DNA of 64,000 nucleotides from NCBI RefSeq assembly GCF_031851795.1, contig NZ_CP134696.1, positions 6,200,001 through 6,264,000 on the forward strand, read 5' to 3'. Below the pieces are notes generated by a model that did not search any database, was not told where the DNA came from, and was given only the letters and a program-made list of their open reading frames with translations. The stretch is from Pontibacter sp. G13. GTDB lineage: Bacteria; Bacteroidota; Bacteroidia; J057. Of the stretch, positions 3,286-35,419 are shown in pieces; positions within the stretch are counted from its first letter, which is position 1; each line of letters begins with the position of its first letter. Made by a program: the position numbers and the translations under genes.

Positions 3286-3655
3286 TGAGGTTCCGAAAAT
3301 GAGCCTTCGCAGCCGGAAGGGCAAGCCTTTAAATCCTATTCCCCCGAAGCTGTTGAATGCTTGGGATTTCGAAGCGAGAAGGAACAGTTTCGGGCTGGTC
3401 AAATCGGCATATTCTACGGAATAAATTGGGCTATGTCCGAAAAAAATGCCCCTCAGGTTCCGTAAATGAGCCTTCGCAGCCGGAAGAACAAGCCTATAAT
3501 TCCTCTATTCCCCCGAAGCTGTTGAATGCTTGGAATTTCGAAGCGAGAAGGAACAGTTTCGGGTTGGTCAAATTGGCATATTCTACGGAATAAATTGGGC
3601 TATGTCCGAAAAAATGCCCCTCAGGTTCTGGAAATGAGCCTTCGCAGCCGGAAGG
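3286..3655. repeat. Tandem 168-bp repeat containing several hairpins
   Basis: The block running from GGTTC(C/T) through the motif CCTTCGCAGCCGGAAG begins at 3289, 3456 and 3624, spacings of 167 and 168 bp. There are two full units plus a partial third. Each full unit holds three inverted repeats: CCTTC-n7-GAAGG; CCGAAGCTGTT paired with AACAGTTTCGG across about 28 bases; and TATTC-tacg-GAATA. The units differ at few positions, so the duplication is recent or maintained. Short open frames cross the units, but their peptides resemble nothing. The block lies between the convergent ends of the lipoprotein and ahcY genes. Confidence 0.85.
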
Positions 3656-3674
3656 ACAAGCATGAAACAGCTTC

Positions 3675-11926: not shown

Positions 11927-12005
11927 CCGATCGGGAATCTCCTGGACAGGTCAAGGGTTAAAACCCTTGGCTGTGATGTGTCGCGCCTACAGCGCTTGGA
12001 TGGAT
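11927..12005 (-). repeat. Partial copy of the 139-bp A repeat
   Basis: Read on the minus strand, this stretch carries the second half of the A module found four times at 33457-34054: CCAAGCGCTGTAGGCGCGAC, ACATCACAG, then the palindrome CAAGGGTTttAACCCTTG, and finally GGAGATTCCCGATCGG in a shifted position. It abuts the 186-bp repeat at 12020. Confidence 0.8.
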
Positions 12006-12019
12006 GCTCTGATGGGTGC

Positions 12020-12205
12020 GGCTGGCAGGTGCGGCGTGAGGTGTCTGGAGTGGCCGACCTTCGGGAGGAGTCGGGTATCGGGTGGCGGCGATATCTCGCC
12101 ACCCGATGCTCGACCGAGCGTCAGCGAGCACGGAAGGGACCGACCTCGCGACCATGATGATCGGAGGAGAACGAAATGCCCAGCACGCGGGGGCACGCCC
12201 AAATC
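12020..12205 (+). repeat. 186-bp palindromic repeat, copy 1
   Basis: This element matches 32893-33078 on the opposite strand at 182 of 186 positions without gaps. It contains a perfect 11-bp stem, ATCGGGTGGCG (12077-12087) and CGCCACCCGAT (12097-12107), around a 9-base loop with the core GATATC. The half after position 12110 (CGACCGAGCGTCAGCGAGCA ...) has diverged relatives at 34287-34380 and 62578-62670. Open frames across it differ in every frame and are not coding. Confidence 0.92.
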
Positions 12206-32614: not shown

Positions 32615-32821
32615 ATGGAAGATCACGTATATAAAAAGATCGAGATCACCGGTTCCTCTACCAAAAGCATCGAAAAGGCCATTGAAACCGCGCTCGATCG
32701 CGCCAGCCAGACCATCAAAAAAATGCGCTGGTTTGAGGTAGTAGACACCCGTGGTACCATCGAAAGCGGGAAAGTAACCTGCTACCAAGTAACCCTGAAA
32801 ATTGGATTCACCTTGAAATAG
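32615..32821 (+). CDS. Dodecin family flavin-binding protein
   Basis: This 68-residue protein is of typical dodecin length. It begins MEDHVYKKIEITGSSTKSIE, has the helix ALDRASQTIKKMRWFEVVDTRG with the flavin-stacking Trp39, and ends YQVTLKIGFTLK. Dodecins form hollow dodecamers that store flavins. It is a single gene with a strong terminator; the palindromic repeat mosaic begins right behind it. Confidence 0.95.
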   Translation: MEDHVYKKIEITGSSTKSIEKAIETALDRASQTIKKMRWFEVVDTRGTIESGKVTCYQVTLKIGFTLK

Positions 32822-32892: not shown

Positions 32893-33078
32893 GATTTGGG
32901 CGTGCCCCCGCGTGCTGGGCATTTCGTTCTCCTCCAATCATCAAGGTCGCGGGGTCGGTCCCTTCCGTGCTCGCTGACGCTCGGTCGAGCATCGGGTGGC
33001 GAGATATCGCCGCCACCCGATACCCGACTCCTCCCGAAGGTCGGCCACTCCAGACACCTCACGCCACACCTGCCAGCC
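32893..33078 (-). repeat. 186-bp palindromic repeat, copy 2 (inverted)
   Basis: It matches 12020-12205 on the opposite strand at 182 of 186 positions, with no gaps. The 11-bp stem is ATCGGGTGGCG (32991-33001) with CGCCACCCGAT (33011-33021), loop core GATATC. It begins 6 bases after the dodecin terminator. Confidence 0.92.
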
Positions 33079-33265: not shown

Positions 33266-33394
33266 CTGCTGCTTGAATGGCATCCAAGTTCAACCGCCGA
33301 GGGGGCATGTGGAGTGGACTCGGCATAATTTTCTAGCCCTAACATCCACGATGCGTGAGATCCCGCATAAATTTTCCCACCCACAGGCGCCACC

Positions 33395-34054
33395 GCGTCG
33401 AAATTTTGCGGGATGAGGCATTATGTTTCGCATGACAAGATGCTCCGCGCTCAGGAGATTCCCGATCGGCACCTTCACACCTGCCAAGGCCATCGCCGTC
33501 GAGAATGACGTGATGAAACCAAAGGCTTAGGGCTTGAAATCCATCCAAGCGCTGTAGGCGCGACACATCACAGGCAAGGGTTTTAACCCTTGACTTGGGA
33601 GATTCCCGATCGGCGCCTTCACACCTGCCAAGGCCATCGCCGTCGAGAATGACGTGATGAAACCAAAGGCTTAGGGCCTAAAATCCATCCAAGCGCTGTA
33701 GGCGCGACACATCACAGGCGAGGGTTTCAACCCTTGACTGCGTCGAAATTTTGCGGGATGAGGCATTATGTTTCGCATGACAAGATGCTCCGCGCTTGGG
33801 AGATTCCCGATCGGCGCCCTCGCACGGGCCTTGGCCACCGCCGTCGAAAATGACGTGATGAAACCAAAGGCTTAGGGCTTGAAATCCATTCAAGCGCTGT
33901 AGGCGCGACACATCACAGTCAAGGGTTTCAACCCTTGACTGCGTCGAAATTTTGCGGGATGAGGCATTATGTTTCGCATGACAAGATGCTCCGCGCTCAG
34001 GAGATTCCCGATCGGCGCCTACACACAAGCCAAGGCCATCGCCGCCGGGAATGT
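33395..34054. repeat. Array of alternating 62-bp B and 139-bp A repeat modules
   Basis: Order and coordinates: B1 33395-33456, A1 33457-33595, spacer TGGGA, A2 33601-33739, B2 33740-33801, A3 33802-33940, B3 33941-34002, A4 (truncated) 34003-34054. All three complete A copies are 139 bp and all B copies 62 bp. Each A module runs from GATTCCCGATCGGC through GCGCTGTAGGCGCGACACAT to a palindrome CAAGGGTTTTAACCCTTG (TTTC variants in A2 and A3). Each B module runs from GCGTCGAAATTTTGCGGGAT to GCTCCGCGCT. Frames crossing the array are not protein-like. Confidence 0.92.
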
Positions 34055-34483
34055 CTGAGGCGCCGGGTATTCATTCCTGCCGAGATTCTGAATAAATTCC
34101 CAGCGCACGTACCCGCCCTTCAGATTTTTCAGAATGACACAGAGAGGGTTTAGATGAATGGGCCAAATGAGCCTTTCCAGACGCAGTATCAGAGCAAAAG
34201 ATCCAGCAAAAGTGCGGATGGCCTGCGGCGGCGTGATGGGCCTATAAGGTGAGGCGTAGCCGAAGTCCCGGAGCCTCAAGCGGAGGGACCGAGCGATCAG
34301 CGAGCCTGGAAGGGCCAGACCCCGCGAATCGAATGCCGACGAGAACCCATTTTTCAACACGCGGGGGCACGCCCAAATCATTCGCATTCTTCAACTTGGA
34401 TATATGAGACGGCTGGGAAATCTACTCCGAAATGGAGAAATGCTGCAGTTTCCGTATCTTCATGGCATCAATCCAATCTACCG
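34055..34483. other. Non-coding end of the repeat mosaic
   Basis: This holds a diverged relative of the 186-bp element at 34287-34380 (GACCGAGCGATCAGCGAGCC ... ACGCGGGGGCACGCCCAAAT). Otherwise I see no gene, no clear promoter and no terminator before the hydrolase gene at 34484. Confidence 0.6.
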
Positions 34484-35419
34484 ATGAAATATCCGATTTT
34501 CTGGTCTGTACTGCTTTTGGGGCTACTGGGAGCCTGTCAATCTCCTTCTTCACAGTCGGAGCCAACTGAGATGGTCAGTGGCCGATATGCCCTCAATGGC
34601 ATCGACCAATATGTCCATATCGAGGGGCAAGGAACGCCGATCCTGATTGTACATGGTGGTCCGGGATTGGATCATTCGTATATCCAACCGCATCTTGGGA
34701 AACTTGCCGATGGATTCCAGCTGATCTATCTGGACCAGCGCGCGAGCGGAAAATCTGCCATCGGGCCCGCCCAACAAATCACTGTGGCGCAATTGGTGTC
34801 GGATATGGAGGCGCTGCGGGATACGCTTGGCATCGACCAATGGCATGTGCTGGGACATTCATGGGGCGGATTCTTGGGATTGCAATATGCTGCTGCCCAT
34901 CCAAACGCCGTGGAATCGCTCATCCTGATGAACTCGCTGGGGGTTTCGACAGCAGACAAGCAACAAGAAACGGCCTCCTTGGGAAATCGGGAAACGGCGG
35001 AAGATTCTGCGGAGACGGCAAAAATCCTGCAAAGTGCTGAGATGCAGTCACGCTCGCCACGTGCTTTTGAGCAATTGTTCGAGGTGTCTTTTCGGAAGGA
35101 ATTCTTTCGGCGGGAATTGGCGGATTCTCTGCATATCCACCTTTCTGACTCTTTTGTGATGCAGCAGCGGGCCATGCTCCAAGGCCTTGGTCCCGAGTTG
35201 CAGGAATATGATTTCTCAGAGATGGCAGCTGAACTACAGGTGCCCACACTGCTTATTTATGGGGATCACGATCCTTTGATGGAGATTTCAGGTCCCAAAT
35301 TGGCGGAGTTGATTCCTGAGAATGAATTTGTCGTACTCTCCGAATGCGGGCATTTTCCGTTTATTGAGCGCCCAGATACTTTGATGGAGGTCATTTCTGC
35401 TTGGGCTGACCGGGAGTAG
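34484..35419 (+). CDS. Alpha/beta-hydrolase lipoprotein, proline-iminopeptidase-like
   Basis: This 311-residue lipoprotein has signal MKYPIFWSVLLLGLLGAC (Cys18). The oxyanion motif ILIVHGGPGLDHS (about residues 53-65) is typical of prolyl iminopeptidases. The nucleophile elbow GHSWGG has Ser126; Asp is in YGDHDPLM and His in ECGHFPFIERP. It should therefore hydrolyse a small ester or peptide outside the cytoplasm. Its 3' end overlaps the convergent phosphate-transporter gene by 29 bp, so there is no intergenic terminator on this side. Confidence 0.92.
   Translation: MKYPIFWSVLLLGLLGACQSPSSQSEPTEMVSGRYALNGIDQYVHIEGQGTPILIVHGGPGLDHSYIQPHLGKLADGFQLIYLDQRASGKSAIGPAQQITVAQLVSDMEALRDTLGIDQWHVLGHSWGGFLGLQYAAAHPNAVESLILMNSLGVSTADKQQETASLGNRETAEDSAETAKILQSAEMQSRSPRAFEQLFEVSFRKEFFRRELADSLHIHLSDSFVMQQRAMLQGLGPELQEYDFSEMAAELQVPTLLIYGDHDPLMEISGPKLAELIPENEFVVLSECGHFPFIERPDTLMEVISAWADRE

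Follow-up and report, generated by a model that had tools for sequence, protein, structure and literature searches.

Acido-Lenti-1 as a probable REP-like DNA repeat linked to subclass-1.2 TnpA genes, seen from a mosaic array in Pontibacter sp. G13

The repeat array described here lies in a 64,000-nucleotide stretch of the Pontibacter sp. G13 genome (NZ_CP134696.1, positions 6,200,001 to 6,264,000; hereafter the window) and is probably a BIME-like island, in which REP-like elements are clustered as a mosaic and one unit is linked to the TnpA transposases of subclass 1.2. That unit is the Rfam motif Acido-Lenti-1 (RF01687). We think it likely that Acido-Lenti-1 is a REP-like element and not an RNA gene, and that with subclass-1.2 TnpA as its partner it forms an unrecognised system in Bacteroidota plus at least six phyla (single or few loci in each), with a foot of its own (TGTC-G in this genome) and units made of two hairpins, and that in place of these the other lineages of subclass 1.2 have hairpins of their own. 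The link between Acido-Lenti-1 and subclass-1.2 tnpA is new here. The location of the motif beside these transposase genes suggests what its role may be, and on sequence grounds the unit is a probable candidate substrate of an orphan transposase subclass.

Sequence comparison confirmed base for base the order B-A-A-B-A-B-A that had been predicted from the DNA alone, with three full A copies (139 bp each) and three B copies (62 bp each), although the array starts at 33392 and not, as first given, at 33395 (Table 1). At each of the two A-to-B junctions, the end of A is followed directly by the start of B. The palindrome said to end A is perfect in A1 and in the third A copy, but its arms are separated by 2 nt (TT or TC), and in A2 it is imperfect (CGAGGGTT-TC-AACCCTTG). 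All copies run head-to-tail, with 87-98% identity among the A parts and 100% among the B parts, and Tandem Repeats Finder (TRF) reports periods of 144 and 201 bp with scores of 537 and 762, far above chance. The array sits in a 1.5-kb gap between a dodecin gene (32615-32818, +) and one for an alpha/beta hydrolase (34484-35419, +), and beyond the array itself the whole extragenic span from 32.89 to 34.39 kb consists of dispersed repeat pieces. Inspection by eye found no direct repeat outside the inverted flanks formed by module C. A second small mosaic, at 11950-12205 of the window, combines an Acido-Lenti-1 unit with pieces of module C, sharing ~98% identity with the array's left flank.

Table 1. 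Positions of the array, its parts and related repeats in the window
Feature	Position	Strand	Remarks
Module C, left flanking repeat	32893..32977	+	inverted partner of 34297-34379
B-palindrome left arm, GAGATCCCGCATAAATTTT	33357..33375	+	pairs with AAATTTTGCGGGAT at 33401-33414 (DNA fold)
B1	33392..33453	+	62 bp; right palindrome arm; sole B copy retaining the left arm
A1	33454..33592	+	139 bp; A5 part and A3 part
Acido-Lenti-1 unit in A1	33548..33593	-	32.7 bits, under the Rfam cut-off of 37
Spacer ACTTG between A1 and A2	33593-33597		5 nt
A2	33598..33736	+	139 bp
A5	33598..33661	-	CGTC-footed long palindrome, CGTC-(ATTCTCGACGGCG..CGCCGATCGGGAAT)-CTCC (fold and alignment)
A5, further copies	33454-33517, 33799-33862, 34000-34053		
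Acido-Lenti-1 unit in A2	33692..33737	-	30.1 bits, under the cut-off
B2	33737..33798	+	62 bp
Third A copy	33799..33937	+	139 bp
Acido-Lenti-1 unit in third A copy	33893..33938	-	41.2 bits, above the cut-off
B3	33938..33999	+	62 bp
A4	34000..34053	+	truncated; A5 part only
Module C inverted, right flanking repeat	34297..34379	-	
Acido-Lenti-1 unit in second mosaic	11951..11996	+	40.4 bits

Neither A nor B is an elementary module. A consists of A5 (63 bp) and an A3 part (77 bp, ~57 of which are widely common in the genome), and B represents half of a third palindrome, its right arm; the matching left arm persists only ahead of B1 (DNA fold). A5, the A3 part and B each also occur alone elsewhere in the genome, in varied order and orientation at dozens of places; A therefore does not hold as one module, its first ~63 bp and last ~57 bp being found separately. 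In the genome, of 7.67 Mb, a 204-bp query taken from the array matches 91 places and a 201-bp A/B composite 70, and the composite had no match in 39 relatives, 12 of them from the same family. The shared portion of the A3 part is Acido-Lenti-1, a 46-bp two-hairpin unit on the minus strand: the last 46 bp of A match the whole Rfam model, one of the three copies passing the cut-off. Because the parts separate elsewhere and the edges fit the 46-bp unit, A and B were rejected as elementary mobile units. The proposal that the repeat 'spreads by its ends' thus survives for the unit inside A, which has clear edges in 33 stretches, but not for A and B themselves, which are head-to-tail copies.

Across the genome, RF01687 matches at E<=0.001 number at least 83, of which 29 exceed the cut-off; this is a lower bound, 150 of 988 candidates having been scored. 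The unit is built of an 8-bp stem, a 12-nt linker ending in TGTC, and a second stem of 4 bp (G-NN-C) whose five-base loop most often reads YTWCA. The foot TGTC-G is present in 36 of 38 aligned copies, and is not the GT[AG]G foot of the GTAG class of REPs. Among 34 stretches of this genome picked for having matches, 33 contain the 46-bp unit with clear edges; with one copy taken from each of these 33, the mean fraction of the major base is 0.82 inside the unit against 0.37 and 0.42 in the 40-bp flanks to the left and right, and conservation reaches background at the left end and ~5-9 nt past the right end. The stems covary. In 38 distinct copies, 93.9% of stem cells are paired and 92 cells carry double changes, and the covariation score is reached by none of 500 shuffles; double changes fall in 8 of the 12 stem pairs, a count attained by 10 of the 500 shuffles, and in pair types the copies do not exceed the shuffles, 449 of 500 being at least as high. 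The variable pairs of stem 2 are kept in 127 of 129 pattern matches, which fall into five main stem subtypes, largely one per locus. The unit is thus a short high-copy palindrome of the general REP kind, extragenic in the window array, where its position was checked; unlike REP doublets, the units of that array share one orientation.

The genome contains two PF01797 (Y1) matches, only one of which is of subclass 1.2. This tnpA (C1:1435511-1435963; L043:6512-6964) encodes a 150-aa IS200-like TnpA with the motifs HVH (HUH) and YIRRQKEHH, the latter conforming to Y---Q--HH, which the accessible sections of Quentin et al. 2018 (PMC6006769) give as the signature of TnpA_Y1 subclass 1.2. Its single copy agrees with the low copy number of that subclass, and its best solved relative is IS608 TnpA (2a6m, E 5e-15), with the HUH and Y...Q residues aligned. 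Our own alignment shows conserved C-terminal residues, possibly those of the subclass-specific C-terminal domain. On both sides the gene is flanked by inverted Acido-Lenti-1 doublets, and 297-nt copies to either side of it are 92% identical. Units in inverted doublets around a single-copy HUH/Y1 gene are the arrangement of a REPtron, although the stem subtype at the gene is not the dispersed one: GG/CC and CC/GG occur beside tnpA and CG/CG in the window. Among the 34 stretches GG/CC and CC/GG were found at tnpA only, and genome-wide the GG/CC pattern occurs at three places, every one of them at tnpA. Because of this difference we call the unit 'REP-like' and not a REPtron member, and window-type units may or may not be mobilised by this particular TnpA. 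The same sections of PMC6006769 describe subclass 1.2 as generally without the typical IS200 terminal structures, and give REPs or atypical structures for class-2 subclasses and class 3.

The association of the unit with the gene extends beyond this genome. A panel comprising 148 genomes from the phylum, assumed to be the same set in the two surveys although one used stricter filters, contains 74 with a subclass-1.2 match, 29 with RF01687 and 21 with both, so that 8 of the 29 RF01687 genomes lack a subclass-1.2 match and 53 of the 74 subclass-1.2 genomes lack RF01687. Co-occurrence with subclass 1.2 as a whole is modest (21/29 RF01687 genomes against 53/119 others; Fisher p 0.006, kinship ignored) and is stronger for the clade close to the tnpA of this genome (8/12, this genome included, against 21/136; p 2.5e-4, kinship ignored). 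All 29 panel loci that were fetched encode Y---Q--HH, and 28 have the HUH pattern, L072 being the exception. When scanned together, RF01687 (E<=0.05) was found in 5 of 11 close loci and in none of 9 distant ones; 9 further distant subclass-1.2 loci also gave no RF01687 match. A unit model built from the window's genome alone, with the line between close and distant fixed before the model existed, matched 8 of 11 close loci at E<=0.1, none of 18 distant subclass-1.2 loci and none of 30 NF047646 RAYT loci.

The second Y1 gene of the genome is itself an NF047646 RAYT. It was rejected as the mover of the unit because it is flanked by its own repeat, CGCGGACTTCCGGACCGTGTGC, and because the 30 NF047646 loci from elsewhere do not match the unit model; as a counterpoint, Acido-Lenti-1 units do also lie near this RAYT. 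In this region (L049:6830-9141; C1:5,486,829-5,489,140) they are interleaved with the CGCGGACTTCCGGACCGTGTGC repeat, with a TacA-like antitoxin/GNAT pair in between.

The unit also keeps close to the gene in a wider sample, the best 80 of 574 confirmed relatives of tnpA, assigned to phyla by their record titles, many of them those of MAG contigs. Of 56 model hits at E<=0.01, 46, spread over 30 loci, fall no further than 800 nt from the gene, and the other 10, in 6 loci, lie beyond that distance, a 25-fold excess over background. The hairpin-core pattern occurs 146 times near (48 loci) and 19 times far (7 loci); counted in non-coding DNA, which leaves out 46 of the 146 near and 13 of the 19 far matches that fall inside open frames >=100 aa, it occurs 100 times near (40 loci, 36 kb) and 6 times far (4 loci, 83 kb), a 38.5-fold enrichment. 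The p-values for this proximity are overstated, since hits cluster, loci are related and kinship was ignored. Core or model lies near the gene in 54 of the 80 loci: 39/43 in Bacteroidota, 1/1 in Ignavibacteria, 1/1 in Chlorobiota, 2/4 in Acidobacteriota, 2/10 in Planctomycetota, 2/8 in Verrucomicrobiota, 1/2 in Hydrogenedentota, 1/1 each in Pseudomonadota, Armatimonadota and Nitrospirota, and 3/4 in unnamed bacteria; near-gene matches were not found in Calditrichota (0/2), Desulfobacterota (0/1) or Fibrobacterota (0/1). The Rfam model at its cut-off, applied to 11 named loci (8 chosen for earlier near model hits and 3 without them), gave 7 matches, which are spread over 5 loci and never lie more than 225 nt from the gene. 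These include a symmetrical inverted pair beside the gene of Verrucomicrobia bacterium LW23 (L114) and a near-gene match in an Acidobacteriota MAG (L139) that our own model and the core pattern had missed, L139 being one of the 26 loci with neither near the gene. By eye, several of these 26 have other hairpins after the stop codon, and in many of the 80 loci (L082-L161) a CGCCCTTTCAGGGCT-type hairpin starts within tens of nucleotides of the tnpA stop codon.

Units are also found where a close tnpA is not. RF01687 is present in 4 of 13 genomes of the family, and a close tnpA in the window's genome only. Genome G152, of the same family, has 15 Acido-Lenti-1 matches, and a search for subclass-1.2 tnpA in its assembly of ~1050 contigs found none; G149 (57 matches) and G155 (1 match) have distant subclass-1.2 tnpA only. 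In G149, a scan of 27 stretches found the units on 22 MITE-like elements (L200-L223), 201-273 bp long and alike at their ends, 18 of which have direct repeats >=8 nt, a count favoured by the several end offsets that were allowed. Another enzyme can therefore spread the unit, and the motif does not require TnpA. The ends of these elements read TTAGTACAGGACAA, their target duplications are mostly of ~9 bp, and several REP-like hairpins lie inside. Group II introns have elsewhere been linked to Acido-Lenti-1. As a cause they were rejected, there being no GIIM match in the window's genome; in the Rfam scan of the 11 named loci a single partial match to an intron appeared, at the end of a contig (L101).

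These observations allow other explanations of the array to be weighed. One is that a spacer simply underwent tandem duplication and that its modules are now decayed repeats without a function. The head-to-tail copies, their high identity, the 144- and 201-bp periods and a composite without match in 39 relatives all fit this, and the fixed module lengths, which the original prediction had set against random duplication, need nothing beyond recent duplication without indels. Such duplication was probably the last step of the array's growth; as a full account it is possible but doubtful, because it explains the length of the array and leaves both the recurrence in more than 30 other stretches and the link to tnpA unaccounted for. 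That A and B are themselves mobile elements inserting side by side via their ends, as the start of B at the end of A at both A-to-B junctions might suggest, is barely credible, given that A splits into A5 and an A3 part elsewhere, that B is half a palindrome and that shared junctions follow from duplication.

The unit itself could be a passenger without its own mover, carried by DDE-type MITEs or by recombination between mosaics. The G149 elements with their direct repeats show one such carrier, and in the window's genome the units lie among many other repeat modules. We nevertheless regard this as unlikely, as the shared block there barely exceeds the 46-bp unit and has no common ends outside it, and as the enrichment beside subclass-1.2 tnpA would be left unexplained. 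Improbable, too, is a small structured RNA or RNA-level element (an mRNA end, terminator or stabiliser), of which the array would be a bank. The 'structured RNA' of the original prediction gains from the covarying stems and from the Rfam entry, typed 'Gene; sRNA'; the accessible part of Weinberg 2010 has the motif as a probable RNA, and the hairpins may also act in RNA once transcribed. Covariation is equally expected of DNA hairpins, however, stem subtypes are largely locus-specific, and the units cluster on both sides, and in both orientations, of one kind of transposase gene. It is this company, a single-strand DNA transposase, inverted pairs and clusters, that leads us to favour a DNA hairpin.

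On the preferred reading, that of a REP-like unit with a TnpA partner, some features are shared with known systems and others are not. As in REP/BIME elements and their RAYTs (REPtrons), there are short high-copy palindromes, a short conserved foot adjoining the stem, and inverted doublets around a single-copy HUH/Y1 gene; the foot is TGTC-G in place of GT[AG]G, however, each unit has two stems, the gene-side stem subtype differs from the dispersed one, and the enzyme has the subclass-1.2 Y---Q--HH where RAYTs have a class-2 motif including NP. With TnpA_Y1 subclass 1.2 our enzyme shares this motif, HUH, a length of ~150 aa and a single copy; in the accessible sections of PMC6006769 that subclass is not among the REP-associated ones, whereas here it is flanked by Acido-Lenti-1. 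The Rfam entry describes an sRNA of Acidobacteria and Lentisphaerae; here the motif is a DNA repeat scattered in many copies over a genome of Bacteroidota type, and is tied to a transposase. The G149 MITEs contain the same units but have terminal inverted repeats and target duplications, none of which was recognised with confidence around the window array. A5, finally, resembles the CGTC-tagged REPs (Di Nocera et al. 2013, PMC3733652) in its CGTC foot, AT first pairs and palindrome. According to the accessible text those have a stem of 8-9 bp, a loop of 4-5 and the tail CCA, whereas the A5 stem is longer and bulged, its loop much larger and its tail CTCC; the repeat sequences in the figures of that paper could overlap with the motif.

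The view that no described repeat has this form fits the A/B composite, unmatched in 39 relatives, and fails for the end of A, which is an Rfam motif, and for A5 with its resemblance to CGTC-tagged REPs. Absence from relatives, named at the outset, together with lack of transcription and of conserved secondary structure, as evidence against the prediction, likewise applies to the A/B DNA but not to the 46-bp structure, as this is also found in other phyla. Searches of open-licence full texts, figures and supplements excluded, found no paper tying Acido-Lenti-1 to a transposase; in such full texts no reported DNA partner of subclass-1.2 TnpA was found, and the hairpin cores, as text strings, returned only papers unrelated by title. 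The accessible text of a 2026 paper places Acido-Lenti-1 downstream of two T. forsythia proteases. An Rfam motif to which no function is assigned and a transposase subclass whose DNA ends are not known may be two orphans that account for one another. If so, Acido-Lenti-1 annotations would have to be re-read as DNA repeats, REP/RAYT-like systems would reach the Y1 branch near IS200, and a defined enzyme-substrate pair would be open to in vitro testing.

The in vitro processing of single-stranded REPs by TnpA_REP (PMC8266576) suggests, by analogy, that a subclass-1.2 TnpA would bind the folded single-stranded 46-nt unit with its TGTC foot, for example on the lagging strand, and would cut and rejoin beside the hairpin, the unit being copied or moved to extragenic sites as has been proposed for REPs with TnpA_REP. 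Units may then have come to adjoin other palindromes, the CGTC-footed A5 and palindrome B, to give the composite, and tandem duplication by slippage or unequal exchange would have amplified it in place with periods of 144 and 201 bp. Alternatively, excised circles may have reinserted, processing through circular intermediates being mentioned as an alternative for REP arrays in the accessible text of PMC3733652.

Distant subclass-1.2 tnpA genes (L064-L081) are flanked, by eye, by other short hairpins, for example GTCCCATAGGGAC and ATCCCGTTAGGGAT, which are possibly REP-like repeats of their own. Beside one such gene (L070:2108-2210) lies a match to Rfam Flavo-1 below threshold (33.7 against 42 bits), and Flavo-1 might be another such repeat; 9 further distant subclass-1.2 loci had no Flavo-1 match. 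Elsewhere in the window, one protein carries a T9SS tail domain, in keeping with Bacteroidota, and a 169-bp tandem repeat of 2.2 copies occupies 3288-3661.
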